Source: an uncultured Chloroflexota bacterium (GTDB lineage Bacteria; Chloroflexota; UBA11872; UBA12225). From it: DNA of 64,000 nt. How positions within the stretch are numbered: position 1 is the first letter of the stretch; each line of letters begins with the position of its first letter. Location: the NCBI GenBank assembly GCA_902805635.1, contig CADCTC010000001.1, forward strand, positions 1-64,000. Direction: 5' to 3'. The translations under genes were made by a program, and so were the position numbers. The notes below the pieces were generated by a model. That model saw only the letters and a program-made list of their open reading frames with translations, ran no database searches and was not told where the DNA came from. This document shows, one piece after another, positions 304 to 17,063 of this stretch.

Positions 304-1425
304 TTACAGCCAGCCGCTGCTCAAGTCCATGATCCCCGCCTCGCGCGGCCACCACACGTCGAACGTGCTCGTCAGGTCAATCGCCCGCCCTTCCTTGGCC
401 GAGCGATACGCCATCATCTGCTGCTCCGCGATGTGCAGCCCCACCTCGATCCCGCAGTGCAGCGGCCCCACCTTTCGGATAGCCCGCGCGAAGTGCGCCA
501 CGATCTCCCCTTCCACATCGGGCGGCGGTACCGGTACCGCATAACAGTTCGGGATACCAAGGTATTCGATCGGCTCGCTCTCCGGCGGCGCCTTCAGGTC
601 GCTCTTCACCACCAGCGGCCGGCCGTAGCGCGACAGGAAGATCGCCCCCTTCCGCCCGTGCAGCACCGTCCCGTTGGTCATGTACGACCGGGCCCAGATC
701 GAATGCACCTGCGCCTGCTGCCCCGTCTCGTACTCCAGCAGGATCGATACGTTGTCGTCTACCCCCGACTCCACCTTCCCGCCGTCCCCCGTCAGCCGGT
801 GTGGGATCAGCTGGTTCACCAGCGCCGTGATCCGCTTCGCCGGTCCCATCAGCGCCGCCACCCGCGCCAGCGGGTACACCATGGTGTCCAGCATCGCGCC
901 GCCCTCGGCCTCGGCGCTGTAGTACCAGTTCGAGCGCGGTGGCCCGCCGAACGACAGCTCGGCCTCGATCCCCGTGATCTTACCCAGGTACTCCTCGCGC
1001 GCGTACTCCAGCGCCGTCAGGAACGCAGGGTTGTCCACGTACGGCAGCGCCACCAGCGTCACGTCTGGCTGCGCGCGCGCCGCCTCTCCCAGCTCCAGCG
1101 CCTGCTCCCACCGTGTGGTCAGCGGCTTCTCCACCAGCACGTGCTTGCCGGCGCGCACCGCGTCCGCCGCCATCGTCGCGTGCAGCGCGTGGGGCGTCGT
1201 GATCACCACCCCGTCCACCCCAGAGTCATCCAGGAGCCGCCGGTAGTCGGTGTACCACCGGTCGCAGCCGCGCTCTTCCGCCTTGGCCCGCGCGCTCTCC
1301 TCGTGCGCCGCGCACGTCGCCACGAACCGCACCGCCTTCCCGCGTGCATTCAGCTGCTCTGCCTGGTCAAAGAACCGCTTGCTGATCTGCCCGCACCCAA
1401 TCATCCCCAACCTGATCTCGTCCAC
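304..1425 (-). CDS. Gfo/Idh/MocA family oxidoreductase
   Basis: NAD(P)-dependent sugar or polyol dehydrogenase of the Gfo/Idh/MocA family, 373 aa, cytoplasmic. It opens with the Rossmann motif GMIGCGQISKRF and carries the family EKP motif (HVLVEKPL), whose lysine acts in hydride transfer. The frame is open up to 1509, but I chose the GTG at 1425 because a perfect GGAGGAA lies 5 nt upstream (1431-1437) and the family fold starts right there; the extra 28 residues of the longer form look unrelated. It is divergent from hicA. In this context, next to an apiosidase-like hydrolase and an apionate-lactonase-like protein, a D-apiose 1-dehydrogenase is an attractive guess, but the family is too broad to fix the substrate from sequence. 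Confidence 0.85.
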   Translation of the reverse strand: MDEIRLGMIGCGQISKRFFDQAEQLNARGKAVRFVATCAAHEESARAKAEERGCDRWYTDYRRLLDDSGVDGVVITTPHALHATMAADAVRAGKHVLVEKPLTTRWEQALELGEAARAQPDVTLVALPYVDNPAFLTALEYAREEYLGKITGIEAELSFGGPPRSNWYYSAEAEGGAMLDTMVYPLARVAALMGPAKRITALVNQLIPHRLTGDGGKVESGVDDNVSILLEYETGQQAQVHSIWARSYMTNGTVLHGRKGAIFLSRYGRPLVVKSDLKAPPESEPIEYLGIPNCYAVPVPPPDVEGEIVAHFARAIRKVGPLHCGIEVGLHIAEQQMMAYRSAKEGRAIDLTSTFDVWWPREAGIMDLSSGWL

Positions 1426-1470
1426 GTCGCTTCCTCCGGTGCCCAGTTCGCTCTCCAGCACCGAGCCTGG

Positions 1471-1497
1471 TTGTAGCACGGCTGCTGCTCGTATGAT
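1471..1497 (+). promoter_or_regulatory. Possible promoter for hicAB
   Basis: TTGTAG (1471-1476) and TATGAT (1492-1497) are separated by 15 bp, and the hicA ATG follows 14 nt after the -10. The 9-mer GTATGATGG recurs at the candidate operator at 10883-10900. The -35 match is partial. Confidence 0.35.
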
Positions 1498-1511
1498 GGA
1501 AGTGGTCACCC

Positions 1512-1724
1512 ATGCCGCCGAAGATTCGTGATCTGAAAGCGTCGCTCCGACGAGCAGGCTTCACCGAGCGGCCGGGCAAAGGTAGCCACACCGTATGGAG
1601 TCACCCGGCGCTGCAGAGGCGCATCACCATCTCCGGCGGTGATGGCGACGATGCCAAGCCATACCAGCAGCGCGACACGAGGGACGCACTGGCAGATGTC
1701 GCAGACGCCGGCAGGAGCAACTGA
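1512..1724 (+). CDS. hicA: HicA-family mRNA interferase toxin
   Basis: Small (70 aa) toxin of a type II toxin-antitoxin pair; HicA proteins have a dsRBD-like fold and cleave mRNA. The N-terminal pattern (lysine-rich start, LRRAGF, then KGSHTVW with the catalytic-type histidine at about residue 26) and the VTISG-like stretch with DDAK match the HicA family. The stop codon overlaps the start of the next gene by one base (TGATG), the usual coupled arrangement. A weak GGAAG at 1498-1502 may serve as ribosome binding site. Confidence 0.85.
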   Translation: MPPKIRDLKASLRRAGFTERPGKGSHTVWSHPALQRRITISGGDGDDAKPYQQRDTRDALADVADAGRSN

Positions 1725-1954
1725 TGGCCAAACCAGGTACCGAGTCTCGCTACGCGCTTGTCATCGAGTGGAGCCCGGAGGACGAGGCGTTTGTCGTCAC
1801 CGTCCCGGACCTCCCCGGCTGCCGAACGCACGGAGCTTCCTATGAGGACGCGGTGCGCCAGGCACAAGACGCCATCGACAGCTGGATCGATGCAGCCAGG
1901 GCCGACGGTGAGCCGGTGCCGGAGCCACGGACGTTCGCCGACTCCGTTGCGTAG
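1724..1954 (+). CDS. hicB: HicB-family antitoxin (short form)
   Basis: 76-aa partner of HicA. The core pattern YALVIEWSPEDEAFVVTVPDLPG followed by GxSYEDAVRQAQDAI is the partial RNase H-like fold that binds and blocks HicA. AGGAG at 1713-1717 lies 6 nt before the ATG. The protein ends shortly after the fold, so it lacks the C-terminal HTH or ribbon-helix-helix domain that many HicB proteins use to bind their own promoter; autoregulation may therefore be absent or need the complex. Confidence 0.85.
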   Translation: MAKPGTESRYALVIEWSPEDEAFVVTVPDLPGCRTHGASYEDAVRQAQDAIDSWIDAARADGEPVPEPRTFADSVA

Positions 1955-1957
1955 CAT
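1952..1957 (+). promoter_or_regulatory. -10 hexamer for a leaderless transcript
   Basis: TAGCAT ends 6 nt before the GTG start at 1964, and there is no Shine-Dalgarno sequence. It overlaps the hicB stop codon. The same 6-nt spacing recurs before several other genes in the window. Confidence 0.4.
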
Positions 1958-1963
1958 CACGCC

Positions 1964-2800
1964 GTGACAATTTCTACCGCTAGCAGCTCCCGCACTCCCG
2001 TCATCGAGTGGAACGCCCACATCTTTAGCCGGGATACCAGCCGCTATCCCTTTCACGACCGCGCCGTCTACAAGCCCAACGCCGACCGCCTGAACGACGA
2101 CCCGCTCTCGGATTACCTCAAGCGATTGGACGACGAGCAGATCGACCGCGCGGTCATCGTCCACCCCGAGCCGTACGGTGACGACCACCGTCTGATCCTG
2201 GATTGCCTCCAGCGCGAGCCCGACCGGCTGCGCGGCACCTGCCTCTACTACCCCGATGACGCACAGGCGCCCCAGAAGATCGCCGCCCTGGTGCGCCAGG
2301 AGCCGCGTATCGTCGCGCTGCGCTTCCACGCCCACCGCGGCAAGGAGCAGTACCTCAACAACTTCGACGACGAAGGCGTGCGCGCCCAGTGGAAGGCAGC
2401 CGCCGACCTCGGCTTGATCGTCGAGCTGCACATCGGCCCCAACTACGCGGCCCAGGCCGCTGCCCGCATCAAGGAATACCCCAAGGTCCCGGTCCTGATC
2501 GACCACCTGGCCGAGCCGCACATGGGCAACCCCATTGAGTACGCCGAGGTACTGGCGCTGGGCCGCCTGCCCAACGTCTACATGAAGCTCTCCGGCCTGA
2601 ACCACTTCGCCAAAGATGCCCCCCAGTACGAGAGCGCCCTGAACTTCACGCGTCTCGTCGCCGACGCCTTCGGTCCCGACCAGATGGTCTGGGGCTCCGG
2701 CACCCCTTCAATCGTGGATACCCACCTCGCTCACTTCTCCGCCTCCGACCGCGCCAAGGTCAAGGGCGGCACCATCACCCGCCTGCTCAACTGGAACTGA
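1964..2800 (+). CDS. Amidohydrolase-related TIM-barrel protein with altered metal site
   Basis: 278-aa protein of the amidohydrolase-2 type (COG3618-like lactonases and decarboxylases). Landmarks are the first strand EWNAHIFS at residues 15-22, the middle histidines (ALRFHAH, ELHIGP, IDHLAEPH) and the last strand MVWGSGTPS near residues 241-249. In active family members these ends read DxHxH and WGSDxP; here the second histidine is phenylalanine and the aspartate is glycine. The rest of the barrel is intact and the gene has no frameshift, so it may be a subfamily with a different metal requirement rather than a dead gene. In a sugar-acid cluster a lactonase role would fit. The GTG start is supported by the -10-like hexamer 6 nt upstream. 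Confidence 0.75.
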   Translation: MTISTASSSRTPVIEWNAHIFSRDTSRYPFHDRAVYKPNADRLNDDPLSDYLKRLDDEQIDRAVIVHPEPYGDDHRLILDCLQREPDRLRGTCLYYPDDAQAPQKIAALVRQEPRIVALRFHAHRGKEQYLNNFDDEGVRAQWKAAADLGLIVELHIGPNYAAQAAARIKEYPKVPVLIDHLAEPHMGNPIEYAEVLALGRLPNVYMKLSGLNHFAKDAPQYESALNFTRLVADAFGPDQMVWGSGTPSIVDTHLAHFSASDRAKVKGGTITRLLNWN

Positions 2801-2833
2801 CGACAGCTTCTCGCCCAGGACGATGACGCCAGG

Positions 2834-2880
2834 CCCCTCTCCTGTGGGAGAGGGGTGGCCGAAGGCCGGGGTTAGCTCCT
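2834..2880. repeat. CCTCTCCC double-hairpin repeat, copy 1
   Basis: A perfect 9-bp stem, CCCCTCTCC with GGAGAGGGG and a TGTG loop (2834-2855), is followed by GGCC-gaa-GGCC and then GGGGTTAGC. The same two-hairpin layout occurs at 22696-22736 and 59694-59745. Confidence 0.8.
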
Positions 2881-2893
2881 CCAAGGAACACCC

Positions 2894-3622
2894 ATGACTC
2901 TCCAACCGCAGATCGAAGCCTGGGTCAATGTCGAGATCGGCACGCCAGCGCAGCCGCAGCTGGTGCGCTGGAGCATCTGGTACCCGCCAGGATCCGACCG
3001 AGGCGGCAAGCGTGGCACCGTCTACGAAAGCTACCTGCTGCGCGTGTCCGGTGGCTTCGTCCTTATCGATCCCGCCCGCCCTCCTTCGAGCGCCGAAGGC
3101 CACCTCCGCGCCATCGCCGAGGCCACCGGCGGCGCCCCGCTGGGCTCCATCCTCACCAACGACATGCACGAGCGCGACGCGTACTCCGTGCGCCGCGAGT
3201 TCGGCGTCCTCGTCTGGGCACCCATGGCCGGGCAAGGCGACTACGAGGGCACGCCGGATCGCTTCTACGCTGACGGTGACCGGCTACCGGGTGGTCTGAC
3301 CGCCATCAAGATCGACGGTCCGTTCCCCGGTGATACCGCCCTGCTCGGCCAGACCCCCGACGGCACCCGCGTGCTCTTCACCGCCGATATGGTGCTCGGC
3401 CAGCGCAACGAGCACGACCAGCGCGAGGGTCTTGGCCGCGACGAGCCCGGCCTTTACCTGCATGGTATCGGCAGCCACCCGCGCGGCTCCCAGGACATGG
3501 CCGTCTTCAAGACCAGCCTACGCCGCTTGCTAGAGCACGACTTCGACATCGTCTGTCCCGCCCACGGCCGCCCCTTCCGCGACACCCCCAAGGCGGCGCT
3601 TGAAAGGTTGTTGTCGGCATAG
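2894..3622 (+). CDS. Metallo-beta-lactamase-fold-like protein
   Basis: 242-aa cytoplasmic protein that looks like a divergent MBL-fold hydrolase: the strand GGFVLIDPARPPSS followed by a helix, SILTNDMHERDAY where HxHxDH is expected, LFTADMVLG where the bridging aspartate lies, and a terminal CPAHGRPF where the last histidine ligand lies. The first metal motif is degenerate (one histidine, H92, and D95), so activity and metal content are uncertain. AAGGA at 2883-2887 supports the ATG. It follows the amidohydrolase gene on the same strand, separated only by a repeat, and may be co-transcribed. Substrate unknown. Confidence 0.55.
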   Translation: MTLQPQIEAWVNVEIGTPAQPQLVRWSIWYPPGSDRGGKRGTVYESYLLRVSGGFVLIDPARPPSSAEGHLRAIAEATGGAPLGSILTNDMHERDAYSVRREFGVLVWAPMAGQGDYEGTPDRFYADGDRLPGGLTAIKIDGPFPGDTALLGQTPDGTRVLFTADMVLGQRNEHDQREGLGRDEPGLYLHGIGSHPRGSQDMAVFKTSLRRLLEHDFDIVCPAHGRPFRDTPKAALERLLSA

Positions 3623-3656
3623 GCCGTGTGAACCGCTCTCGGCACCTGCCTCTCAC

Positions 3657-3757
3657 TGTCATTCCGAGCGCAGCGAGGAATCCGGGCCGCACACTTGTAG
3701 CGACGGCCACCGGCATCTACCCTCGGCTCTGATCCCTCGCTGCGCTCGCGATGACGG
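3657..3757. repeat. TGTCATTCCGAG inverted-repeat element, copy 1
   Basis: About 101 bp bounded by inverted arms of some 26 bp (3657-3682 and 3731-3757), each containing CGAGCGCAGCGAGG or its complement. It sits between two convergent genes and codes for nothing recognisable. Related elements are at 12154-12275 and 36903-37003. Confidence 0.75.
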
Positions 3758-3787
3758 GGAACCACTCTGTCTGAATGCAAACACACC

Positions 3788-4591
3788 TCACAGCCCCAGC
3801 AGCTTCGCCAGCGTGTCGTCGGTGGGCACCAGCGCCACGGCGCGGATGGGGGAGGCGTCCAAGTCCTTGATCGGCAGCGGCATGCCGATGAAGAAGAACC
3901 GATCGCGGGGGATGCCGCCCAGGTTGCGCATGCACTCGATCATCGTCACTTCCTGGTCCTTGCGGAAGAAGAGGTTGTGCAGCGGGTACTCCTTGCCGCG
4001 CGGCCCGCGCACCTCGAACCCCGACGAATCGGTGCCCAGCGCCTTGATCTTGCGGTCCTCGATCAGCCACTGCGCCGCCTCTTCTGAGACGTACGGTCGG
4101 TCGTGCGAGTGCGGCGTGCGGTAGAGGTTGTCGCGCCCCTGCCACATGAAGACCAGGTCGCCCTCGCGGATGCCACCCGCCTTTTCCGCGGCCGCTTTGA
4201 AGTCTTCCAACGTGATCGCCTCGTTGGTCTGCTTGTGGCGCAGATCCACCCGCACCGCCGGGCCGATGAAATGGTCCAGCGAGAAGTCGGACGTGTCCTT
4301 GCCGTCCGCGTAGAAGTGGCGCGCCGCCTCGGCGTGCGTCCCCACGTGCGACCAGAACGACACGTCCGACTGGATGTCCCCTGTCGCCGTCTTGCGCTCC
4401 CCCCGCTCCCTCACGTCCAACGCGTACTGCTCGTCCCCCGGCCTCAGCCGGTGTGTCAGGTCCACCACCACGTACCCTGGCCCCCGCAGCGGCTCCGCCT
4501 GCGCCTGCAGCCGCTCTGTGGTCTCTTCGCGCACGTGGGATAGATCGCCCGTGGCCCCGAGCCCCGCGCTGGTCGCATCGATAATTGTCAT
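3788..4591 (-). CDS. Cyclase family protein (kynurenine-formamidase-like)
   Basis: 267-aa metal-dependent hydrolase of the putative cyclase family (PF04199 type), which includes bacterial kynurenine formamidase and other amide or lactone hydrolases. The metal-binding signature HVGTHAEAARHF (family HxGTHxDxPxHF, with glutamate in place of aspartate) is present, as are the VDLTH start of the fold and ALGTDSSGFE. The start overlaps the stop of the upstream kinase gene by 4 bp (ATGA), so the two are translationally coupled; it is the last gene of the hydrolase-kinase-cyclase operon. In this catabolic setting a sugar lactone or ester is as likely a substrate as formylkynurenine; no other kynurenine pathway gene is present. 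Confidence 0.8.
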   Translation of the reverse strand: MTIIDATSAGLGATGDLSHVREETTERLQAQAEPLRGPGYVVVDLTHRLRPGDEQYALDVRERGERKTATGDIQSDVSFWSHVGTHAEAARHFYADGKDTSDFSLDHFIGPAVRVDLRHKQTNEAITLEDFKAAAEKAGGIREGDLVFMWQGRDNLYRTPHSHDRPYVSEEAAQWLIEDRKIKALGTDSSGFEVRGPRGKEYPLHNLFFRKDQEVTMIECMRNLGGIPRDRFFFIGMPLPIKDLDASPIRAVALVPTDDTLAKLLGL

Positions 4592-5676
4592 GAGATTGCT
4601 GTACCTTGCTTGGTGAATAGTGTTGTCATAAGAGCATCATCGCCGGTGAGCACGGCTGCTCCCGGCACGGCGAGCGCAGGCTGCCACACCGCGCCGCCGC
4701 TCGCGTTGATAGCAGCCGCCACGGCTTCGGCGTTAGAGGAGGCGCACAGGGCCACCATGATGCCGCCGCCCCCTGAACCCGACAGCTTGGCCCCGTATGC
4801 GCCGGCTGCCAGTGCCGCGTCGATCAGCCCCTCCAGCTCCGGGGTGGAGACGCCAATCTTCTCCAGCACCAGTTGGTTCAGGGTCATGAGCCGCCCCAAC
4901 TGCGGCCACTCCCCCGCTGCCAGCGCCGGCTGCGCCGCCCGCGAGAGCAGCCCGATGCTCTCGAAATAGCGCATCCGGCCGCCGGGGTTCTCCGCCAGCC
5001 AGCGCCGCACGCGCGAGTTCACTTCACTCGTGGCGGCAATGACTCCCGTGTTGCCGATCACCAGGCACAGGTCTTCGTGGTAGGCCACCGGCTCCCCTAG
5101 GCCCCGCTCCGCCGTGAAGCGGATCACGCCGCCACACAGCGCCGTCTGCGAGTCCAGCCGGGAGGCGACGCCACCGTGCGCGACGATGTCGCCGCGGTGT
5201 GCCCAGTCCGCGGTGCGCTCCCGATCCGCGCTGCACCCGATCCACGTCGCCAGCGCCGTTGCCAGCGCGGCGTACGCCGCTCCGCCCGATCCCAGTCCCG
5301 ACGACTGTGGTATGCCGCTGTCGAACGATACCTCCAGCCCCTCCGGCAGGTCCGCTCCTAGCGCCGTCGCCAGGATGTACTGCTGCGGCGCGAAGAAGTC
5401 GCTGCCCGCCAGGGCCCGCACCGCCTCATATTCCTCGGCGGCCCGCCAGCGATCAACGCTCTGGCCGAGCGCCAGCACCGCCTCGCGCGCCACCCGGTGC
5501 TCCGTCTGCCCCGGTGCATCGCTGCGAAACGTCACGCCTGGGCTGCCGGTCAGGCTAAGGCGGCACGTCGCGTAGAGCGCCACGCTCGTCGCCAGGGCCG
5601 GCTGGCCCCGGTTGATGGCGTGCTCGCCGAACAGGATCACCTTCCCCGGCGCGCGCGCCACGACCTCGTTCGCCAA
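4588..5676 (-). CDS. GHMP kinase, probable mevalonate kinase
   Basis: 362-aa GHMP-family small-molecule kinase. It begins with ARAPGKVILFGEHAINRG, the mevalonate kinase N-terminus, and has the ATP-binding loop PQSSGLGSGGAA (usually PxGAGLGSSAA), a VASRLDSQTALCGG stretch that aligns with the catalytic aspartate region, the STSEVN-type motif (AATSEVNSRVR) and the C-terminal KLSGSGGGGIMVAL loop with GVSTPELEGL upstream. These fit mevalonate kinase better than galactokinase. It starts 1 nt after the glycoside hydrolase stop and overlaps the cyclase gene, so it is embedded in a carbohydrate operon with no other mevalonate pathway gene nearby. A sugar substrate therefore remains possible. Confidence 0.7.
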   Translation of the reverse strand: MANEVVARAPGKVILFGEHAINRGQPALATSVALYATCRLSLTGSPGVTFRSDAPGQTEHRVAREAVLALGQSVDRWRAAEEYEAVRALAGSDFFAPQQYILATALGADLPEGLEVSFDSGIPQSSGLGSGGAAYAALATALATWIGCSADRERTADWAHRGDIVAHGGVASRLDSQTALCGGVIRFTAERGLGEPVAYHEDLCLVIGNTGVIAATSEVNSRVRRWLAENPGGRMRYFESIGLLSRAAQPALAAGEWPQLGRLMTLNQLVLEKIGVSTPELEGLIDAALAAGAYGAKLSGSGGGGIMVALCASSNAEAVAAAINASGGAVWQPALAVPGAAVLTGDDALMTTLFTKQGTAIS

Positions 5677-5677
5677 C

Positions 5678-7321
5678 TCAGGCGGCCCTCAAGATCAGCA
5701 CCCAGTCTTCTTCATCCGGCGATCGCAGCGTCACCTGCCCGTGCTCAACTTGGCCCATATTGCTGCGTGTCCCGTCGCGGGGGTTGACCCATGTGGCGAT
5801 CAAGCCCGCAGCCAGGGATGACGTGTCAAGCCGCAGCTCCCCGCCTGCCGCCAGGTAGAGCACCGCTACCTGCCCGTCCCCAGTGCGACCGGCAGTGACG
5901 TAGCGCAGCACGTCGGTCTGCCCTTCCGGACCGGTGTAGGGGTGGCCGCGCAGCAGATCCTGCGCCGGGCGTAGCGTCCACCACGGCACCGAGGCAAAGA
6001 CGTCGTGCAGGTGCTTCATCTGCTGTGCGCCCGGCAGGTGCAGTGCTTCGCGCCAGTGCTTGGAGACGCCGGTGTACGGGTGCGCCACCGGGGTGGTGCC
6101 GCCGGGGTCCCAGCCCCACACGCCGTGGCCGCCGTACGTTACCCCCGCGGTGGGCGAAACCAGCAAGCTCCAGTAGTTCGCCCGGCGCACGTGTACCGCC
6201 GGGTGGCGCTCCTTCGATTGGTAGGAGACGTGGTCCTCGTACGGGGACTCGATGTTCATCACCACTTTGCCCGACACGTCGGGCCACTCGGTGGCCGGTG
6301 GACCTTCCACGATCCAGCGCCACGTTTCTTCGTCGTCGCCGTGGCCGCTCTGGTAGCCCACGATGTCCAGCCACGGCTCGTCCTTGAATTCGTGGCCGAC
6401 CCACGTCTTTCCGCCGGGGTGAACCATCGTCGGGGCGCGCTGCTCGCGGTCGGTCTCGCCGAACACCGCCTGCCCGATCCGCCGCCAGCGTGCCGCCTCC
6501 TCGTCCAGGTACTTGCCGTCGCCGTTGAGGATCCAGATCACCGGGTGGGCGTGCCAGCGCGCCACCTGGTAGCGCGCCAGAAGCGCGCAGTCCGCTTCAG
6601 ACAGCACGTTGCCGGGGTTGGTCTCGTTGAACTGCCCGCCCTTGATCGCCCACAGCAGCACCGGCACGCCCACGATCCCCGCGGCCGAGAGCGCGTCCTG
6701 GCGCTCGTCGAGCCGCTGGAAAAAGCCTGGGTTGAGCCGGTCGAGCGTGTCACCGCCCCAATAGGCCGGGCCGCTTGGTCCGCCCTCCGGCGCCGTTCGC
6801 CAGTGTGTGGAGACGTACTGCGTGGCAGTAAAGCCCTGCTCCCAGCGCACCTGCAGGTAGTAGTCCCAGTCCTCCTCGCCGGCCAGCATCGGGCCGTTCC
6901 AGGCCGTATCCGCCAGGAAGAACCACGGCGTGCCGTCGGCGTGGACCAGGTGCCGGCCGTCCTCCGCGACCCGGATGGGGCCGTGCAGGTACAGCGGGTT
7001 ATCGCCATCGTACGCCACGCACTCGAACGTCCCCGCCGTCGCCGCCCCGGCCAGCTCACCCGATTCCTCGGCATCCGCCGTGAGCGTGTACTCCCAGCGT
7101 CCCACCTCATCCGGCGAGAACCGTACCCGCCACGTCGTGCCCCCATCCCAGAACCCCGGCACGCTGCGGCGCTGTCCCGACGGCCCCGTGAAGTCTCCCT
7201 CTGCCCGCACGCCGCGCAGCGGGTCGACCTCGCCCTCCAGCTCCATTTCGATACTCGCCTCAAAGCGCCCCCACGTGTGCACGCGCTGCGCGGGCCGTTG
7301 GCCACGTTCCATCTGACTCAT
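5678..7321 (-). CDS. DUF5060/DUF4038 glycoside hydrolase, apiosidase-like
   Basis: 547-aa predicted glycoside hydrolase without a signal peptide, so cytoplasmic. Residues about 10-105 form a beta-sandwich (WDGGTTWRVRFSPDEVGRW, DUF5060-like). A (beta/alpha)8 barrel of the DUF4038 apiosidase-like type follows from about 118 (FFLADTAWNGP, QYVSTHWR, WILNGDGKY, VMNIESPYED). The aspartate of LNGDGKY and the glutamate of NIESPYE sit where the acid/base and nucleophile of this clan (GH140 apiosidases) are found; this placement is my inference. First gene of an operon with the kinase and cyclase. Cytoplasmic location implies that it acts on imported oligosaccharides or glycosides. Confidence 0.75.
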   Translation of the reverse strand: MSQMERGQRPAQRVHTWGRFEASIEMELEGEVDPLRGVRAEGDFTGPSGQRRSVPGFWDGGTTWRVRFSPDEVGRWEYTLTADAEESGELAGAATAGTFECVAYDGDNPLYLHGPIRVAEDGRHLVHADGTPWFFLADTAWNGPMLAGEEDWDYYLQVRWEQGFTATQYVSTHWRTAPEGGPSGPAYWGGDTLDRLNPGFFQRLDERQDALSAAGIVGVPVLLWAIKGGQFNETNPGNVLSEADCALLARYQVARWHAHPVIWILNGDGKYLDEEAARWRRIGQAVFGETDREQRAPTMVHPGGKTWVGHEFKDEPWLDIVGYQSGHGDDEETWRWIVEGPPATEWPDVSGKVVMNIESPYEDHVSYQSKERHPAVHVRRANYWSLLVSPTAGVTYGGHGVWGWDPGGTTPVAHPYTGVSKHWREALHLPGAQQMKHLHDVFASVPWWTLRPAQDLLRGHPYTGPEGQTDVLRYVTAGRTGDGQVAVLYLAAGGELRLDTSSLAAGLIATWVNPRDGTRSNMGQVEHGQVTLRSPDEEDWVLILRAA

Positions 7322-7363
7322 TTCTGCGTCCTGAGCGAATTTGTGTCTGGATGCCCTAACGGG

Positions 7364-8083
7364 TCAGCGGGCCTCGCGCGCCTGGGTGAGCGTGGTCTCC
7401 GCCTCGTCCAGGTGCGCCTGCATGGCGCGCCGGGCGGCGGCTGCGTCCCCTGTCTCCACGGCAGCAAATACCGCCACGTGGTGCGTCAGCGCGTTGGCCG
7501 GCGTGCCCGGCAGCCGGTGCGCCTGGCGGCGCGCGTCCAGCAGCGCGTCCTGCATGGCGCCGAGCAGCATCGGCATGAGTGGGTTGCCGCTGGCCACCGC
7601 GAGCGTGTCGTGGAAGCGCACATCCGCTTGCGACCAGCCTTCCGGCTCGCCGCGCCGCGCACGCATCTCCTCGATAGCCTCGCGCAACGCCGCCAGGTCA
7701 CGTTCGGTGCGCCGGGCAGCGGCCATGCCCGCGATCTCCACCTCCAGCAGCCGCCGCGCTTCGAGCACGTGCGCCCACGTGACCCCGGCGCCCGAGACCT
7801 GCATCGCCAGACCCAGCAGCTCCGACGCCGGCGCGGCCGAAGCATGGCGCACCCAAGTCCCGCCGCCAGAGCGCACCTCCAGCAGCCCTTTGGCCTCCAG
7901 AGAGCGCACGGCCTCACGCACCGCTGTGCGGCTGACGCCGAACTGCTCGCACAGCTGGCGCTCCGCAGGCAGCTTCTCGCCCGCCAGCAAGCGTCCCTGT
8001 GCGATCTGGCCGGAGATCGCATCGGCCACCTGGTCCGCCAGCTTCGGCTGCCGCTGCACAGTGGCGAAGACGGACTCAGTCAT
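7364..8083 (-). CDS. GntR family regulator, FadR subfamily
   Basis: 239-aa transcription factor. Residues about 14-75 form the winged helix of GntR proteins (LPAERQLCEQFGVSRTAVREAV, then LEAKGLLEVRSGGGTWVR). The rest is an all-helical FCD ligand-binding domain (VLEARRLLEVEIAGMAAAR, RFHDTLAVASGNPLMPML). FCD proteins usually sense sugar acids or other carboxylates. It overlaps the upstream epimerase gene by 8 bp and lies between that gene and the glycoside hydrolase operon, making it the likely local regulator. A 7-bp inverted repeat of GntR type at 10883-10900 is a candidate operator. Confidence 0.9.
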   Translation of the reverse strand: MTESVFATVQRQPKLADQVADAISGQIAQGRLLAGEKLPAERQLCEQFGVSRTAVREAVRSLEAKGLLEVRSGGGTWVRHASAAPASELLGLAMQVSGAGVTWAHVLEARRLLEVEIAGMAAARRTERDLAALREAIEEMRARRGEPEGWSQADVRFHDTLAVASGNPLMPMLLGAMQDALLDARRQAHRLPGTPANALTHHVAVFAAVETGDAAAARRAMQAHLDEAETTLTQAREAR

Positions 8084-9098
8084 CGACGCCGTCCAGGTCG
8101 CTATCTAGCCGTTCGCCCAGGTGCTCCCATGCCGCTATGACGCGGTCCTGCCACGGGTCGCCATCACTCGCGTCGATGATGCCGCGCTCGTCCAGCCACG
8201 CGGCGTTGCGCCGCACGCCCTCCACAAAGGGAATGGTGTAGCGGAAACCCAGGTCTCGCCGCGCGTTCGACGTGTCGAATATGTTGTTGAAGCGGAAGTT
8301 CTCCGCGATGATCTTTGCCCGGCGCGGCAGCGCGCGCGCCAGCACGTCGGTCGGGATGTGCACGATGCGCGGCGGCGGCGCGCCCAGCCCCTCGGCGGCG
8401 CGCTCGGTGTACTGATCCCAGGTCATCCACTCCTCGCCGGTCACGTTGTACCCCTTGCCATACGTGACCGTGTTGCCGGTGGCACCCAGAAAGCCGCGCG
8501 CCACGTCGTCGATGTGGCAGGCCACCCAGAGGCTGCTGCCGTCACCGTGCACGATCACCGGCTTGCCCTGGCGCAGCCGTTTCCACGCGCCGCCGCCACG
8601 GCCAAAGACGTGGATGAAGTCCCGCCCCTCGCCGTAGGTCTGCGCCGGTCGTAGTATGGTGACCGGCACGTCGCCGCGCGCGTGCGCCGCCATCAAGATG
8701 CGCTCGCACTCGGCCTTGTCGCGGCCGTACTTGCTGGTGCCGCCCAGCGGCGCGTCGTCGGGGATGGGGAAGCGCTGCGCGGGCTTCTCGAACACGTCCA
8801 CGGTGGAGCAGAAGATCAGCTGCGCGGTACGGCCACGCACTGCGCGCGCCAGACTCTCAGCTTCTTCCGGCAGGAAGCAGATCATGTCGATGACACAGTC
8901 AAAGCGCCCCGCCTTCGCGATCTGTGCTTCGAACGCCGCGAAGTCCTTGCGGTCGCCGTGGATGGTGCGCGCCCCCGCTGGGACGCGCACTTCGCTCTGG
9001 CCGCGGTTGTAGAGCGTCACCTCGTCGCCGCGCTCCAGTAGCTGACGCGTCATCGACGTGGAGATCAGCCCCGTGCCGCCGATGATGAGAACCTTCAT
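8076..9098 (-). CDS. NAD-dependent epimerase/dehydratase
   Basis: 340-aa extended short-chain dehydrogenase. The N-terminal dinucleotide motif VLIIGGTGLIS and the active-site pair in SKYGRDKAE (YxxxK) are intact, with a well-defined substrate half (TLYNRG, EWMTWDQYTE). Such proteins act on nucleotide sugars or free sugar derivatives. It lies between the ABM-like gene and the GntR regulator in a same-strand series, consistent with co-expression. A second, distinct epimerase is at 17128-18057. Substrate not predictable. Confidence 0.85.
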   Translation of the reverse strand: MKVLIIGGTGLISTSMTRQLLERGDEVTLYNRGQSEVRVPAGARTIHGDRKDFAAFEAQIAKAGRFDCVIDMICFLPEEAESLARAVRGRTAQLIFCSTVDVFEKPAQRFPIPDDAPLGGTSKYGRDKAECERILMAAHARGDVPVTILRPAQTYGEGRDFIHVFGRGGGAWKRLRQGKPVIVHGDGSSLWVACHIDDVARGFLGATGNTVTYGKGYNVTGEEWMTWDQYTERAAEGLGAPPPRIVHIPTDVLARALPRRAKIIAENFRFNNIFDTSNARRDLGFRYTIPFVEGVRRNAAWLDERGIIDASDGDPWQDRVIAAWEHLGERLDSDLDGVDD

Positions 9099-9111
9099 GC
9101 TCGTGCGTGTC

Positions 9112-9465
9112 CTACTGCTCGTCGAAGAGGTACGCGGTGAAAAGCCACTTGGTGCCAGGCGGCATCTTGAGCGGCTTCTCCAGCGGCGGCCACGCGCCCA
9201 CGTGCCCCGGCGCCTCGCTCCACGCGTGGCGCTGCTCCTCGCTCTCGAACACCTGGATCAGGCGGTAGTTCAGCTGCGTGGGTGTGTCCCCCACGTTGGC
9301 CTGGCGCAGCTTGAGCAGGCGCCCCTCAATAAATCCCGGCGCCTGGCTCACCCGCGGCAGCCACTCGTTGCGCCACGCATCCACGAATTCCTGCTCGCGC
9401 CCCTCGTCCACCAGAAAATCGGTGTGCAGCTGGATTCCCCGCCCCGCCTGTGTCGCTTGTGCCAC
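9112..9465 (-). CDS. Small ABM/Dabb-like ferredoxin-fold protein
   Basis: 117-aa protein with the layout of antibiotic-biosynthesis-monooxygenase-like or stress-responsive dimeric alpha-beta barrel proteins: a first strand (IQLHTDFLVDEGREQEFVDAW), a helix, then PGFIEGRLLKLRQ and YRLIQVFESEEQRHAW. In catabolic clusters such proteins are often small mutarotase-like or monooxygenase-like accessory proteins. The start is GTG, with GAGGAG 6 nt upstream. It lies between the epimerase and the solute-binding protein on the same strand. Confidence 0.6.
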   Translation of the reverse strand: MAQATQAGRGIQLHTDFLVDEGREQEFVDAWRNEWLPRVSQAPGFIEGRLLKLRQANVGDTPTQLNYRLIQVFESEEQRHAWSEAPGHVGAWPPLEKPLKMPPGTKWLFTAYLFDEQ

Positions 9466-9487
9466 GTTGTTCTCCTCGTCCTGATCG

Positions 9488-10825
9488 TTATTTCTTCTTG
9501 AGCAGGTCGTTGATCTGCCCCTTCACTTCGCCGATCGCCTGCGCCGCCGTCTTCTCGCCGGCATACACGCTGGTGTAGGCGGCGCCGAAGACCTTCTGGA
9601 TCTCGGTGGACTGCGACGGGTAGATCGTCGGCCGCACCTTGTTGATCGTCTCGGTGTAGACCGGCACGCTCTGCCACGGGTACAGCGTGCGTGCGAAGTC
9701 CGGCGAACTGACCGTGGACTTGTGCCACGGCACCGTCACCCGGTCCGCCAGAAACATCTTCTCGGCTTCCACGCTGGACTGGTAGCTGGCGTATTCCCAG
9801 GCGGCGTCCTGGTGCTTGCTGCCCTTCATGATGTGGATGCCGAACGGCACGTTGCGGATCACACGCCCCGCCTTGCCGGTGGGCATCGCGACCACTCCCT
9901 TCTCGAATGGCGCGTCCGCGAAGTCCTGGATCACCGCGTTGGTGGTGATGAACGTGCCAATGCGACCGGCCTGGAAGCTGGACCCTTGCCCAAGCTCCTT
10001 CTTCTCATCGGGATTCATCGATACGCGGTGCTTGGTGGTCAGGTCAGCCTGGAACTGGATCGCGTCGAGCGAGTCCTTGGAGTCCAGCAGCGTGTTCTGC
10101 ACCGCCTTGTCCCACACGTCGCCACCCATGGGCCACAGGAACGCCAGCTGGATGTCCCAGTTGGCCCAAAACCAGTCGATTGCCCAGACCTTCTGCTCGC
10201 CGCCGCCGGCCACCAGCTGCTTTGACATGTCCAGGAACGAGTCCCAGGTCCACTTGCCCTCGCGCTCGTACTGGTCCGGCGTCTTCACGCCGCGCTGCTG
10301 GAACAACGACTTGTTGAAGTACAGCGCGTGCGGGGCCGAGTTGTTGGGCAGGTAATACTGCTTGCCCTCCTGCTCGTAGTAGCCCCACAGGTTGGGAAGG
10401 ATGTCCGGCGCGTTCTTCTTGTCCTTCTTGATCTGCTCGTCCAGCGGCTGCAGCGCACCCGCGTCCAGCAGCGGCCGCGAGTCGCGTGGGTGCGCGACGC
10501 ACAGGTCGGGCGGAGTGCCTGCCGCTGCTTGCGCCAGCACCGCGGTATAGAGCGGGTTGGGCGAGTCGTACGTCGCGGTGATGGGGCCGCCACGGGCGTT
10601 AAATGCCTGGGTGACCTTTTTCTCCACCGCGTAGAAGCCCACGTTGTTCACGCCACTTGCGTGCCGCAGTGCCACCGGCGCCTGAGTCGCACTCGGCTGC
10701 GCGCCGCCGCTTGCCGCCGGCCCACACGCCGCTCCCAAGATGCCGCTGCCGCCGGCGGCCAGTGCCCCCATCCCCAATCTACGCCGCGTCACTCCGCGCT
10801 GCCCTGGTGCTGCCTTTCCCCTCAT
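9488..10825 (-). CDS. Extracellular solute-binding lipoprotein, family 1 (sugar ABC transporter type)
   Basis: 445-aa substrate-binding protein. The N-terminus has a twin-arginine-like stretch (VTRRRLGMGALAAGG) and a lipobox ending LGAAC, so it should be a membrane-anchored lipoprotein, possibly exported folded by Tat. The body has the family-1 fold: ITATYDSPNPLYTAVLAQAAAGTPPDL, the VWAIDWFWANW aromatic patch, and PFGIHIMKGSKHQDAAWEYASYQSS near the end. An AGGAGGGA site lies about 9 nt before the ATG. No permease or ATPase gene is in the window, so its membrane partners are encoded elsewhere. Divergent from the alcohol dehydrogenase gene, sharing a control region. Confidence 0.85.
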   Translation of the reverse strand: MRGKAAPGQRGVTRRRLGMGALAAGGSGILGAACGPAASGGAQPSATQAPVALRHASGVNNVGFYAVEKKVTQAFNARGGPITATYDSPNPLYTAVLAQAAAGTPPDLCVAHPRDSRPLLDAGALQPLDEQIKKDKKNAPDILPNLWGYYEQEGKQYYLPNNSAPHALYFNKSLFQQRGVKTPDQYEREGKWTWDSFLDMSKQLVAGGGEQKVWAIDWFWANWDIQLAFLWPMGGDVWDKAVQNTLLDSKDSLDAIQFQADLTTKHRVSMNPDEKKELGQGSSFQAGRIGTFITTNAVIQDFADAPFEKGVVAMPTGKAGRVIRNVPFGIHIMKGSKHQDAAWEYASYQSSVEAEKMFLADRVTVPWHKSTVSSPDFARTLYPWQSVPVYTETINKVRPTIYPSQSTEIQKVFGAAYTSVYAGEKTAAQAIGEVKGQINDLLKKK

Positions 10826-10882
10826 GCCGCGTGTCTCCCTCCTGATTCGCTGTCCAACACACCAGCCGCCCTCAACCGGTCG

Positions 10883-10900
10883 TGGTATGATGGCATACCA
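10883..10900. promoter_or_regulatory. Candidate GntR operator overlapping a -10 box
   Basis: TGGTATG and CATACCA form a perfect 7-bp inverted repeat with a 4-bp centre. TATGAT (10886-10891) inside it can act as a -10 toward the dehydrogenase. FadR-type regulators bind TGGT/ACCA palindromes of this kind, and such a regulator is encoded at 7364-8083. It sits in the 199-bp divergent gap between the solute-binding protein and the dehydrogenase. Confidence 0.5.
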
Positions 10901-11024
10901 AAACGGTGGTGTCCAGCAACGTCACACGGGCTCGCCATGTGGGGGATACGGTAGGCTTCCGACCCACAGAGCAGACCGGCAAGTCCGCCCAATACGCCTG
11001 CCCGGATATCAAGGAGACCTACAC

Positions 11025-12050
11025 ATGCGCGCTGCCGTGACCGTTGCCCCGCGCCGAATTGAAGTCAAGGAGCTGCCCGACCCCACGCCTGCGCCGGACG
11101 AAGCGCTGCTGCGCGTGGAGGTCGCCGGCATCTGCGGCTCCGACCTGCACATGTTCGACGGCACCAACCCGTACGCCAACTTCCCCCTCACGCAGGGCCA
11201 CGAGTTCTCGGCGCGCGTCGTGGCGCTCGGATCCGCCTACCAGGGCGCCGTCAAGCCGGGTGACCGCGTGACGGTGGAGCCCCTGATCTACTGCGGCGAG
11301 TGCTTTCCCTGCCGGCACGGCCGCCCCAACTGCTGCGTGCGCCTGAAGGTGCTCGGCGTGCACACCGACGGTGCGTTTGCCGAGATGATCTCGGTCAAGT
11401 CGCGCGCCCTGTTCCCGGCCGGCAGCCTGGACGCCGAGCTGACCGCGCTGGTGGAGCCGGTCTCCATTGGCATGCAGGTAGTTACGCGCGGCCAGGTCAC
11501 AGGCGACGACACCGTGGTGGTCTACGGCGCCGGCGTCATCGGCCAGGCGACGCTGGTGTGCGCCCGCGACCGCGGCGCGCGCGTGCTGGTGGTGGACAAG
11601 CTGCCGTCGCGCCTGGAGCTGGCCAGGAAGCTGGGCGCCGAGGCAACCGCCGAGGCCGGCCGCGAAGACGTGGCGAAGGTGATCGCCGACTGGACCAACG
11701 GCGAAGGCCCGGCCGTGGCGGTGGACGCCACCGGCGTGCCCGCGGTCATCCGCGCCGCCATCGACGCGGTGGCGCCCTCCGGCCGCATCGTCATCGTCGG
11801 CATCTCCGACCAGGAGGTATCCATTCCGGTGATCCAGTTCTCGCGCAAGGAGCTCACCATCGTCGGCTCGCGCAACAACGCGGGGGTATTCGGCCAAGCG
11901 CTCGACCTGGTGCAGCGCCTCAACGACCGCCTGCGCGTCCTCGTGACCCACCGCTTCCCACTCGACCAGGCCCAAGACGCCCTCGACCTGGCGCTCGACC
12001 GCCCCCAGCACGCCGAAAAGGTGCTGCTCACGATCACCGACACCAAGTAG
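11025..12050 (+). CDS. Zinc-binding alcohol dehydrogenase (MDR, sorbitol/threonine dehydrogenase type)
   Basis: 341-aa medium-chain dehydrogenase oxidising a secondary alcohol of a polyol, sugar or sugar acid with NAD(P). Catalytic zinc ligands are visible as C37 (CGSD) and H59-E60 (GHEF). The structural zinc lobe has C90, C93, C96 and C104. The nucleotide motif is GAGVIGQATL. The frame is open further upstream, but AAGGAG at 11011-11016 and the start of the family fold fix the ATG at 11025. Divergent from the solute-binding lipoprotein across a region with a GntR-like operator, so probably part of the same regulon. Confidence 0.9.
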   Translation: MRAAVTVAPRRIEVKELPDPTPAPDEALLRVEVAGICGSDLHMFDGTNPYANFPLTQGHEFSARVVALGSAYQGAVKPGDRVTVEPLIYCGECFPCRHGRPNCCVRLKVLGVHTDGAFAEMISVKSRALFPAGSLDAELTALVEPVSIGMQVVTRGQVTGDDTVVVYGAGVIGQATLVCARDRGARVLVVDKLPSRLELARKLGAEATAEAGREDVAKVIADWTNGEGPAVAVDATGVPAVIRAAIDAVAPSGRIVIVGISDQEVSIPVIQFSRKELTIVGSRNNAGVFGQALDLVQRLNDRLRVLVTHRFPLDQAQDALDLALDRPQHAEKVLLTITDTK

Positions 12051-12153
12051 CGGCCGGCGCCAGTGGGCGTGCTTCCGATCCACCAGATGGGCCAGCTCGG
12101 CGTGCTGCCTGCCGGCCAGGCTCACTGTCAGCCACTTGACGAGTCGCAGGGGC

Positions 12154-12275
12154 TGTCATCCCGAACGAAGTGAGGGATCTCGACACGCGCGACGAGATTC
12201 CTTGCCCCTTTGCTCCGCCCCCTGACGCCCTGCGCGCTTGCTGCGCAAGTGCTCGGTTGTCTGCTCGGAATGACA
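12154..12275. repeat. TGTCATTCCGAG inverted-repeat element, copy 2, with a nested hairpin repeat
   Basis: About 122 bp with 11-bp near-perfect terminal inverted repeats (TGTCATCCCGA and TCGGAATGACA). Inside it, about 12225-12260 is a second repeat with a CTTGC-tgc-GCAAG hairpin flanked by ACGCCCTGCGC and TGCTCGGTTGT. The same flanks with a different but still paired stem occur in the helicase gene at about 24149-24184. Confidence 0.75.
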
Positions 12276-12304
12276 GTGGCCCCGCGTGTTCTGGAGACGA
12301 ATGA

Positions 12305-14308
12305 ATGTCCTCTTCACCCGCGCTTTCGCCCCGCGTGCTCCGCTACGGCACGGACGCGCCGCTGCCGGAGGCGCGCGTGCTGCGCGCCGGGCCATGGCGC
12401 GTGACGCTGGAGAACGGCGCCCTGCGCTACCTCACGCTGGCGCTGCCCGCCGGCGACGTGGACGACGTGGAGGTGGTGCGCGGCATCTACGTCGCGGTGC
12501 GCGACCACAACTGGGCCACCATCGCGCCGCGCTTCACGCGCTACGACGTGGACGAGCGGAGCGACTCGTTCACCGTGCGCCTCACCGTCGAGCACACCGA
12601 GCGCGAGATCGATTTCACCTGGGAAAGCACGATCGAGGGCACTGCCGACGGCCGCCTCGTCTATGAAATGGACGGCCACGCGCGCAGCACGTTCCGGCGC
12701 AACCGGATCGGCTTCTGCGTCCTGCACCCGATGGAAGCTGCGGGCACTCGCCTGGAGGTGGAGCACCCCGACGGCCGCAGTGATTCGGGCGTCTTTCCGG
12801 AGGCAATCTCGCCGCACCAGCCGTTCTTCGACATCGTCGCCATGCGCCAGCAGGTGGCGCCGAACGCCGAAGTGGAGGTGCGCTTCGAGGGCGACGTGTT
12901 CGAGATGGAGGACCAGCGCAACTGGACCGACGCGTCGTTCAAGACATACTGCACCCCGCTCGCGCTGCCGTACCCGGTGGAGGTGAAGGCGGAAGAGCGT
13001 GTCCGACAGCGAGTGGAGATTGTGGTTCGGGCCGCTGGAGCGGGAAACAAGCCTCCGCGCCACGTTTCTAAGGCCACGTCGGCGACGGTAGCTGTGGGCG
13101 ACCAACCGATGGGGGTACTGCCGCCAATCGGCCTGCAAGTCGCCTCCCACGGTCAGCCGCTCTCCACACGCGACATCGACGCGCTGCGCCGGCTGCGCCT
13201 CGCTCATCTGCGGGTGAACCTGGACCTCACGCGGCCAGACTGGGAAACGCGGCTGCATCAGGCGTCCGCGGAAGCGCATGCGTTGGGCGCGGCGCTGGAG
13301 ATTGAGGCGGTGTGCGGCGACACCGGCGCCGGCATTGACGCCCTCGCGGCGACGCTGGCGTCGAAGCTCCCGGGCGCTCGCCTGGCGCGCGTGCTGGTCT
13401 TCCCCAGGACCGGCGTCGTCACCACCGAGCCGGTCATGCGACGTGCGCGGGAAGCCTTCCGCGCGGCGCGGCTGGATGTGCCCCTCGGCGGCGGGACGCG
13501 TGCCGACTTCGTCAACGCCAACCGCGCGCAGCTGCTGGTCGAGCAGATGGACGTGTTCGGCTACGCCATCAACCCGCAGGTACACGCCTTCGACAACGCC
13601 TCGCTGGTCGAGACACTGGCCGCGCAGGCGGTCACCGTGGACAACGCACGCCGGCTCGTGGGTGGTCGACCCGTCGCCGTGGGGCCAGTCACGCTGCGGC
13701 AGCGCCTCAACCCGGCCGCGAGCGGGCCTGAGCCCGAGCCGGCACCAGGTCAGCTGCCGGACAGGGTAGACGTGCGCCAGATGTCGCTCTTCGGCGCGGG
13801 CTGGACTCTAGGCAGCATCCGCCGTCTCGCCTCGGCCGGGGCAGCATCGCTGACCTACTTCGAGACCACCGGGTGGCTCGGCGTGATGGAGCGTACGGAG
13901 GGTTTCGCCGAACACCCGGCATTTCCGTCGTTCGCCGGGATGCTGTTCCCGGTCTACCACGTCTTCGCGGCGATTGGAGTGCTGCTGGCGACGGGCGTGC
14001 CGGTGGAGGTGCTTCCCGTCACCACGACTCCGGCACTCGCCGTGGAGGCGCTGGTACTTAGGGCCGGGAACCAGGTGCTGGTGATGGTGGCCAACCTTAC
14101 GGGCGCAAACCAGCAGGTGAAGGTGACTGGCTGTCCCCTGATGGGGCCAGAAGTGCGTCTGATGGACGAAGTGGCTGACGAGCTAATGTTTCGTGACCAC
14201 CGGGGGCTGCGGGGGCCAATTGCCATGGGTCCGGTACCCGAGCTGCAACTGGACCTACGCCCGTATGCAGTGGCGATCATTCCTGGGCGGGCACACCCGC
14301 GCGGGTAA
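12305..14308 (+). CDS. D-apionate lactonase-like protein
   Basis: 667-aa cytoplasmic protein. The N-terminal third matches my recollection of the ApnL family: [47 protein letters not shown], and above all [20 protein letters not shown] followed by PLALPYP. ApnL hydrolyses D-apionolactone to D-apionate in apiose catabolism. The C-terminal part is a barrel-like domain ([40 protein letters not shown]) ending in a small beta domain, like a degenerate glycosidase. GGAG at 12293-12296 supports the ATG. No downstream apionate pathway enzyme (oxidoisomerase, kinase, RuBisCO-like protein) is in the window, so the exact lactone is uncertain. Confidence 0.7.
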
Positions 14309-14323
14309 GGGCGCAGGCCACTT

Positions 14324-14331
14324 CCTACAAT
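14324..14331 (+). promoter_or_regulatory. CCTACAAT -10 element before malate synthase
   Basis: TACAAT at 14326-14331 lies 20 nt before the GTG start and just ahead of its Shine-Dalgarno site. The octamer CCTACAAT recurs before queC, the histidine kinase, the iron alcohol dehydrogenase and the second epimerase. I see no good -35. Confidence 0.45.
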
Positions 14332-14351
14332 CCTCCCCGAGGAGTACAGGA

Positions 14352-15956: not shown

Positions 15957-17011
15957 TCGTCGTCGTTGATCGGTTGCGCCTGCTTGCCCCAGTTGCCGTA
16001 GACGTTGAGCTTCTCCACACCGGCCTCGCCTGCCTCCTCCGTGCCCCCGTTGCCAGCAGCCTGCGGTGCCGCCGGCGCCGCCGGTGAGGCGGGGGCGAAT
16101 GACTGGGCTGCCTGGTCCTGGGCGGCCAGGCGGCGCTGGATGGCGGTGTTGAGCTTGGGGTCGCCGTAGACCTCCAGCTTCTCCTCGCTCAGCTTGGGGC
16201 GCACCCCGTGCACCATCAGCCCCGGCCGGCCAAGACCCTGGCCACTCAGCTGGGTGTTGTTGGGATCGCGGTAGCCCAGGCGCATCACGCGTCGCCAGCG
16301 CGGCCGGCGGTTGAGCGACGAGCCGTGGATGGTGTGGATGCTGAAGAAGACCACGTCGCCCGCTTCGGCCGGGCAGGACACCGCGTCTTCGATGCGGTAG
16401 ACCTTCTGGTCCAGGTGCGGTGAGCCCTCCATGTTGTGGACCAGCGGGCCGAGTCTATGGCTGCCGTCCAGGAACTTGAGGCAGCCGCCGTCTTCGTCCG
16501 CGCCGTCCACGTGCAGGATGGCGTCGATGTAGCGCCCGTCCTCATGGGGGTAGAAGGGGTGGTCCTGGTGCATGGGGAACGGGGCGCCGAAGTCCGGCCC
16601 CTTGGCGTGCAGCGTGGCGTGGTGGAACTCCACCGCCGGACCGAGCAGGTCGGCCAGCGACTTCACCAGGCGCTCCTTGAGGATCGCGCGCATCCAGGAG
16701 GCGGCAAACATCTCGATCTCGTGCAGCGCCACCAGTACGCTCTGCTGCTCTTCCTCGGGGCTCATCAGCTGCTGGCGCCACGGACCGGACCAGCCCTTGC
16801 CCCGCGTGGCGAAGTTCTCGATGACGTAGTCGAGCTCGTCCGAGAGCTCGCGGATCTCCTCAGGCGAGTAGACGCCGCGCAGCCGCAGGAACCCGTGCTG
16901 GTTGTAGAAATCGATCTCTTCGCGCGTCAGCGCCAGCGGCGGCGCCGCTGTTCGCGCGCCGTGTGCGCCGTTCCCCTGCTGCCTGTTCATCGCGCCAGCC
17001 GTCGCCACCAT
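15953..17011 (-). CDS. Phytanoyl-CoA dioxygenase (PhyH) family protein
   Basis: 352-aa Fe(II)/2-oxoglutarate oxygenase. The facial triad is visible: HQD in [11 protein letters not shown] supplies H and D, and the distal histidine lies in [12 protein letters not shown], followed by the arginine-rich strand that binds 2-oxoglutarate (RRVMRLGY). The C-terminal 50 residues are alanine-rich and look disordered. I chose the ATG at 17011 because AGGAGGG (17022-17028) precedes it; the frame also opens at 17059 with no usable ribosome binding site. Bacterial members hydroxylate varied small molecules, so the substrate is unknown. Convergent with malate synthase, divergent from the second epimerase. 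Confidence 0.85.
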
Positions 17012-17063
17012 CGTCGTGTGTCCCTCCTGGCCCACTGTGCCCGCTGTGGGGTTGGTCACATCC

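Follow-up and report, generated by a model that had tools for sequence, protein, structure and literature searches.

Plant cell walls (rhamnogalacturonan II, apiogalacturonan) and many plant glycosides contain apiose, a branched sugar of wide occurrence. An oxidative pathway of D-apiose catabolism with RuBisCO-like proteins (RLPs) was described by Carter et al. (2018, Nat Chem Biol), as cited in PMC6302742. Here we analysed a locus in the first 64,000 bases (1-64000, "the window") of the 128,788-base contig C1 of an uncultured bacterium (assembly G000; 6.1 Mb, 89% complete, 327 contigs), and compared it with that pathway. The assignment of this genome to Chloroflexota fits, since a close named relative is Herpetosiphonaceae. 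The gene set represented by the locus has the same types of hydrolase, dehydrogenase, ApnL, importer and regulator as the RLP pathway, and in the lower part both have a single oxidoreductase, a single kinase and a single metal-dependent TIM-barrel enzyme. However, in place of ApnO, OiaK and the RuBisCO-like OiaX it has a GHMP kinase, a D-2-hydroxyacid dehydrogenase (2HADH) and a barrel protein resembling ribulose-phosphate 3-epimerase (Rpe-like). In our view, with a probability of roughly 0.6, the locus belongs to a variant of oxidative D-apiose catabolism that does without an RLP and phosphorylates D-apionate directly.

The neighbourhoods of ApnL-carrying genomes fell into several types, of which type A was the canonical one (G364) and type B included the kinase. 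In an Abditibacteriaceae metagenome-assembled genome (MAG; locus L074) the type B order was Gfo dehydrogenase, ApnL, SDR, kinase, PF04199 'cyclase', a fusion of the Rpe-like barrel to 2HADH, zinc-dependent medium-chain dehydrogenase (ZnADH) and extended SDR. A Herpetosiphonaceae MAG (L075) carried two parts, the first with ApnL, a binding protein, two permeases, an FCD regulator and an extended SDR, and the second with Gfo, SDR, kinase, cyclase, the Rpe-like::2HADH fusion and a DUF4038 hydrolase. The set of G180 (99% complete, two contigs) ran FCD regulator, Gfo, DUF5060/DUF4038 hydrolase, binding protein, two permeases, kinase, cyclase, Rpe-like, 2HADH, ApnL and ZnADH. That of G305 comprised DUF4038 hydrolase, kinase, cyclase, Rpe-like, 2HADH and SDR; its ZnADH and ApnL genes were on a different contig. 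In G203 the pieces lay on three contigs. G002, from the same family as the window genome, also had a split set, with genes in the order PhyH, citrate-lyase-like, malate synthase, ApnL, DUF4038, kinase and Rpe-like. The window holds cyclase, kinase, DUF4038 hydrolase, FCD regulator, extended SDR, binding protein, ZnADH and ApnL; the Rpe-like gene of this genome was found outside the window (C121:77368-78072), and its product is 69% identical to the L074 domain. Over these seven genomes ApnL, the kinase and the Rpe-like protein were always present, the cyclase occurred in six, and DUF4038 and ZnADH occurred in five each. A linked 2HADH was found in five of the seven, fused to the barrel in two. 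Complete sets were present in the Abditibacteriaceae and Herpetosiphonaceae genomes and in others from the phylum of the window.

The canonical lower genes, those of ApnO (D-apionate oxidoisomerase), OiaK (3-oxo-isoapionate kinase) and an RLP acting as decarboxylase or transcarboxylase, were searched for in several of these genomes. No RuBisCO large subunit or RLP (PF00016) was found in the window genome, G002, G004, G180 or the L074 genome, nor was there a PF00016 match in G400. ApnO and OiaK were both absent from the window genome, G002 and the L074 genome, and G180 gave no match to either above noise level. Computation thus shows directly which genes make up the set, that it recurs and that the canonical lower genes are missing. 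An original prediction, made from the letters of this stretch, had suggested that the lower route may be new or encoded elsewhere. The first suggestion was supported. The second was not, as RLP, ApnO and OiaK were missing both in the window genome and in the 99%-complete relative with the same set. Incomplete assembly, or divergence beyond detection, could in principle have hidden apnO, oiaK and RLP genes of an ordinary canonical pathway in a genome that is 89% complete and in 327 contigs. We regard this as very improbable and already largely refuted, since all three were absent (bar noise) from the two-contig G180 and from two further genomes, while the same searches detected all three in G364; an explanation by MAG incompleteness was rejected on account of G180. 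G364 belongs to the phylum of the window genome, and its cluster (L060) reads ApnL-x-Gfo-RLP-OiaK-ApnO.

ApnL clusters of a further kind were seen on Mesorhizobium ciceri pMc1192 (L010) and in G211 (L056). They have in common with the type B set ApnL, an FCD regulator (NanR/FCD), an ABC binding protein and a 2-hydroxyacid dehydrogenase-like gene, but they lack the GHMP kinase and the Rpe-like gene, and the M. ciceri cluster has an HpcH/HpaI aldolase. No RLP gene was seen near ApnL in either, and perhaps they represent another lower route.

The left edge of the window is the contig start, with no sequence further left. The following features were identified from there onwards:

304-1509, minus strand: Gfo/Idh/MocA dehydrogenase, about 26% identical to a canonical apiose-cluster Gfo; not an ApsD orthologue, membership doubtful
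3788-4591, minus strand: PF04199 'cyclase', a metal-dependent hydrolase (Pfam); its start overlaps the end of the kinase gene; 63% identical to the L074 homologue, which is likewise 3' of the kinase
4588-5676, minus strand: mevalonate-kinase-like GHMP kinase, 362 amino acids, TIGR00549 190 bits; proposed branched sugar-acid (D-apionate) kinase
5678-7321, minus strand: DUF5060/DUF4038 apiosidase-like glycoside hydrolase, 547 amino acids (PF13204 229 bits, DUF5060 71 bits, Collagen_bind_2)
7364-8083, minus strand: GntR/FCD regulator (Pfam); homologues in the L075, G180 and G203 clusters are 47, 44 and 37% identical
8076-9098, minus strand: extended SDR of the NAD epimerase family (Pfam), overlapping the regulator gene; 56% identical homologues in the L074 and L075 clusters
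9488-10825, minus strand: ABC sugar-binding lipoprotein (SBP_bac_1, PF01547 113 bits), without adjoining permease genes
10883-10900, no strand: palindrome TGGTATG-ATGG-CATACCA in the divergent promoter of the binding protein and ZnADH genes; candidate FCD operator
11025-12050, plus strand: ZnADH (Pfam/NCBIfam), adjoining ApnL; 42% identical to the L074 homologue
12305-14308, plus strand: ApnL homologue (D-apionate lactonase family), 667 amino acids, NCBIfam NF049900 329 bits, E=5.7e-98
14193-15956, plus strand: malate synthase A, TIGR01344 805 bits; 72% identical homologue in the G002 cluster; peripheral, common to G002 only
15953-17059, minus strand: PhyH-family dioxygenase (Pfam); 78% identical homologue in the G002 cluster; peripheral, common to G002 only

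The genes named in the original prediction all proved to be real open reading frames of the families given there (open reading frame check, Pfam/NCBIfam). It had overlooked the genes of the GHMP kinase and the PF04199 cyclase, which lie between those of the hydrolase and the Gfo and are core members of the gene set.

The kinase gene directly follows the hydrolase gene with almost no gap, and the cyclase gene comes next. Its product scored 189.9 bits with TIGR00549 and passed the equivalog cut-off of 163 bits, which would be expected of an ordinary mevalonate kinase present here by chance. This explanation is extremely improbable and was rejected on three grounds. The first is the missing pathway: HMG-CoA reductase was not found in three of the kinase-carrying genomes tested (the window genome, G002 and G180), although it was present in G203 and the control genomes behaved as expected, so that the three lack the mevalonate pathway of mevalonate kinase hosts. 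The second is occurrence, as the gene was found in ApnL genomes only and with the same neighbours in two phyla. An alignment search of the genome collection gave two close relatives (58% and 55% identical), both beside ApnL; the remaining 78 kept matches shared 27-37% identity, and the ones looked at or included in the tree resembled ordinary mevalonate kinases. The clade was not detected in 72,556 plasmid records. The third is the sequence itself. When placed in a tree alongside 72 mevalonate kinases, the seven kinases of the clusters fell on one side of a branch supported at 100/99, and their pocket residues are altered.

Residues were mapped by phmmer alignment to the Leishmania major mevalonate kinase (LmMK), whose published residue numbers are obtained by subtracting 3 from the chain numbering; the mapping was checked on Lys18, His25 and Thr198. 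The cluster kinases share with mevalonate kinases (TIGR00549; L. major, Methanosarcina mazei) the fold family, the catalytic Lys and Asp and the motif-1 His (equivalents of Lys18, Asp155 and His25). According to the LmMK crystal-structure paper (PMC1851959), the C3 methyl group of mevalonate sits in a pocket lined by His25, Val28 and Val202. The positions of Val28 and Val202 correspond to N22 and N220 of the window kinase. Asn was present at both in all seven cluster kinases, whereas 71 of the 72 mevalonate kinases had Val at both. The cluster kinases differ further in the next residue, which is Arg (mostly Tyr in mevalonate kinases), and in an extra segment between residues 60 and 105. We conclude that the 4588-5676 product is not a mevalonate kinase. 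D-apionate has a hydroxymethyl and a hydroxyl group on its branch carbon, where mevalonate has a methyl and a hydroxyl. Because of the pocket, the neighbours and the chemistry, the substrate of the kinase is predicted to be D-apionate. A truncated gene of this type was seen in G004 (L070, 519-2300), where just the opening ~40 codons of a kinase gene of the cluster type come after a DUF4038 gene; that genome gave no ApnL match, and the locus is possibly a decayed cluster.

The Rpe-like proteins belong to the barrel family of ribulose-phosphate 3-epimerase (PF00834) and retain the first His-x-Asp and the later His. Unlike the epimerase, they have Ala in place of the Asp of VDGG in six of six sequences, and the NPGFGGQ loop is replaced by RVTGEGxRG. 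In Rpe this Asp is a metal ligand and the second acid/base. A two-base epimerase is unlikely; what would fit is a metal enzyme working through an enediolate to decarboxylate, rearrange or cleave its substrate. Fusion of the barrel to 2HADH suggests that the two act in consecutive steps.

On the proposed route, apiosides would be imported and then cut within the cell by the DUF5060/DUF4038 hydrolase to give D-apiose. Oxidation to D-apionolactone would fall to a dehydrogenase, which would be Gfo in the full clusters and perhaps ZnADH here, and ApnL would open the lactone to D-apionate. The mevalonate-kinase-like enzyme would then phosphorylate a primary hydroxyl of D-apionate, 2HADH would oxidise C2, and the epimerase-like metal barrel would perform the carbon-skeleton step, most likely a ketol rearrangement and decarboxylation via an enediolate, with a tetrulose phosphate as the most likely end product. 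Kinase, 2HADH and barrel would thus stand in for ApnO, OiaK and OiaX, from different families, and the cyclase might, with some question, be a lactone hydrolase. The steps up to D-apionate follow known enzymology; the kinase substrate and every step after the kinase are what we infer. Tentatively, and with well under even confidence, we suggest a more specific version: the two Val-to-Asn changes would turn a C3-methyl pocket into a hydroxymethyl pocket and let a kinase derived from mevalonate kinase phosphorylate D-apionate, after which 2HADH and the epimerase-derived barrel, fused in some bacteria, would oxidise phospho-apionate, rearrange it and remove CO2 to leave a tetrulose phosphate, with no need for an RLP.

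The main chemical rival to a tetrulose phosphate product is a retro-aldol split of the phosphorylated acid into dihydroxyacetone phosphate and glycolate, the latter being oxidised to glyoxylate and consumed by the neighbouring malate synthase. It would account for the malate synthase gene adjoining ApnL in the window and lying nearby in G002, and for the resemblance of 2HADH to glyoxylate reductase (259 bits) and phosphoglycerate dehydrogenase. However, no malate synthase was recognised in the other five clusters, and cleavage next to a carboxylate is difficult chemistry when no carbonyl is adjacent, so that we find this split quite unlikely. As a replacement lower pathway, to which the original prediction had pointed, malate synthase, PhyH and IlvD/Edd were rejected, since malate synthase and PhyH were met again in G002, of the same family, and in no other cluster, and IlvD was unseen in related clusters. 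An IlvD/Edd dehydratase is indeed present in the window, at 45190-47001, 31 kb from ApnL. Its nearest model was PRK06131 (852 bits), with 780 bits for L-arabinonate dehydratase (cut-off 882), and it is likely to be a pentonate dehydratase rather than the biosynthetic IlvD.

For the upper part of the route, the 12305-14308 product was confirmed as an ApnL homologue by a clear match to NF049900 over nearly its whole length. ApnL homologues were found in 18 of the 400 genomes of the phylum that were searched, a rarity which argues that the match in the window is not due to chance, and in 236 of the 72,556 plasmid records. In the ApnL tree, the sequences of this phylum and of Abditibacteriaceae were split from the proteobacterial ones with support of 100/100. 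The tree did not join the ApnLs of the kinase-type clusters in a single clade, and hence the two lower routes cannot be distinguished by ApnL sequence alone. Structure prediction for ApnL with AlphaFold, from three sequences, gave a poor model (mean pLDDT 52), which was set aside.

The 5678-7321 hydrolase, predicted to be apiosidase-like, matched the PF13204 'Apiosidase' domain, and phmmer related it to solved apiosidases (8t9w, E=5e-26; 3kzs/5msy, E=2e-22). D268 and E358, the putative catalytic acids, were invariant among the seven homologues aligned, and we take them to be at the positions of the acid/base and nucleophile in BT1012. It thus resembles GH140 apiosidases (BT1012, 8t9w) in its domain and in the conserved Asp and Glu but differs in carrying an N-terminal DUF5060 domain. 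Identity was ~58% only to same-family homologues and 26-31% to the other cluster hydrolases aligned. On Rhizobium johnstonii pRL12 (L009, 14780-16300), a DUF5060/Apiosidase hydrolase lies within an OiaX-OiaK-ApnO-Gfo-ApnL cluster, which supports a link of DUF5060 proteins to apiose. Neither of the two outcomes that would have refuted the original prediction (no significant ApnL match, or a hydrolase placed away from apiosidases) occurred, and the assignment of the region to apiosides, apiose or a very similar branched sugar is supported. The Gfo at 304-1509, put forward as the apiose dehydrogenase, had to be discarded at 26% identity, being one of very many in the genome. A cluster Gfo used as query had 88 matches in the window genome, the best 35% identical, and no ApsD-type Gfo D-apiose dehydrogenase was found there. 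Three Gfos linked to kinase-type clusters shared 38-44% identity with the dehydrogenases found in proteobacterial apiose clusters. The ZnADH start is best placed at 11025 (ATG after AGGAG), and ZnADH lies beside or near ApnL in G180 and G305 too.

Several points weigh against the apiose variant proposed here. The window ApnL scored 329 bits against an equivalog cut-off of 750 bits for NF049900; this cut-off is narrow, since the ApnL of the full canonical cluster of G364 scored only 338. PF13204 is broader than the proven apiosidases, and no apiose dehydrogenase was identified for the window. The Rpe-like::2HADH query had 29 matches in the window genome with no clearly orthologous 2HADH among them. 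Apionate is one backbone carbon shorter than mevalonate and hence no exact analogue, and its proposed role as kinase substrate draws on neighbours and pocket residues. OiaC (3-oxo-isoapionate decarboxylase, of an alternative branch) was not among the genes searched for, and a RuBisCO_large homologue, its type not determined, was found outside the cluster in both the L075 genome and G203. The kinase-clade and Rpe-like-clade profiles were positive in the same five of 400 genomes, all within the 18 with ApnL, but four of the five had supplied profile sequences, so that the computed chance values for co-occurrence should not be taken at face value and the independent part is G305 together with 395 absences. 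The module might instead degrade another branched or lactone-forming sugar or acid (hamamelose-like, for example) with paralogues of the apiose enzymes. An ApnL below its cut-off, a hydrolase only ~26% identical to the one of the rhizobial cluster and the RLP-less contexts of ApnL in M. ciceri and G211 would agree with this possibility. We nevertheless consider it unlikely: ApnL of a canonical cluster scores alike, the linked Gfos resemble those of canonical clusters, and the L075 hydrolase scored 402 bits with the Apiosidase model.

The palindrome at 10883-10900 has perfect 7-base arms. Arms identical to it over 6 bases are found upstream of ApnL in G203 (L057:250), and G180 and L075 have related TGGT..CCA palindromes close to their FCD genes. 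Two further genes between the Gfo and the cyclase, unseen in related clusters, encode an Amidohydrolase_2 protein (1964-2800; lactone-hydrolase-like, nearest to 4-sulfomuconolactone hydrolase) and a metallo-beta-lactamase-fold protein (2894-3622).

Searches of the open-access literature gave no account of such a variant; subscription papers were not covered, and an earlier mention is possible. If true, it would represent a further lower route for apiose oxidation, in which non-orthologous enzymes replace RuBisCO-like chemistry. Functions would be gained for three recurrent, misnamed enzymes, namely a 'mevalonate kinase' above the curated cut-off, an 'epimerase' without the expected catalytic Asp and a 'cyclase'. 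Automatic annotation would infer from the first a step of a mevalonate pathway that does not exist. The kinase would also provide an example of how two visible substitutions may have adapted the pocket of a biosynthetic kinase to a catabolic sugar acid.

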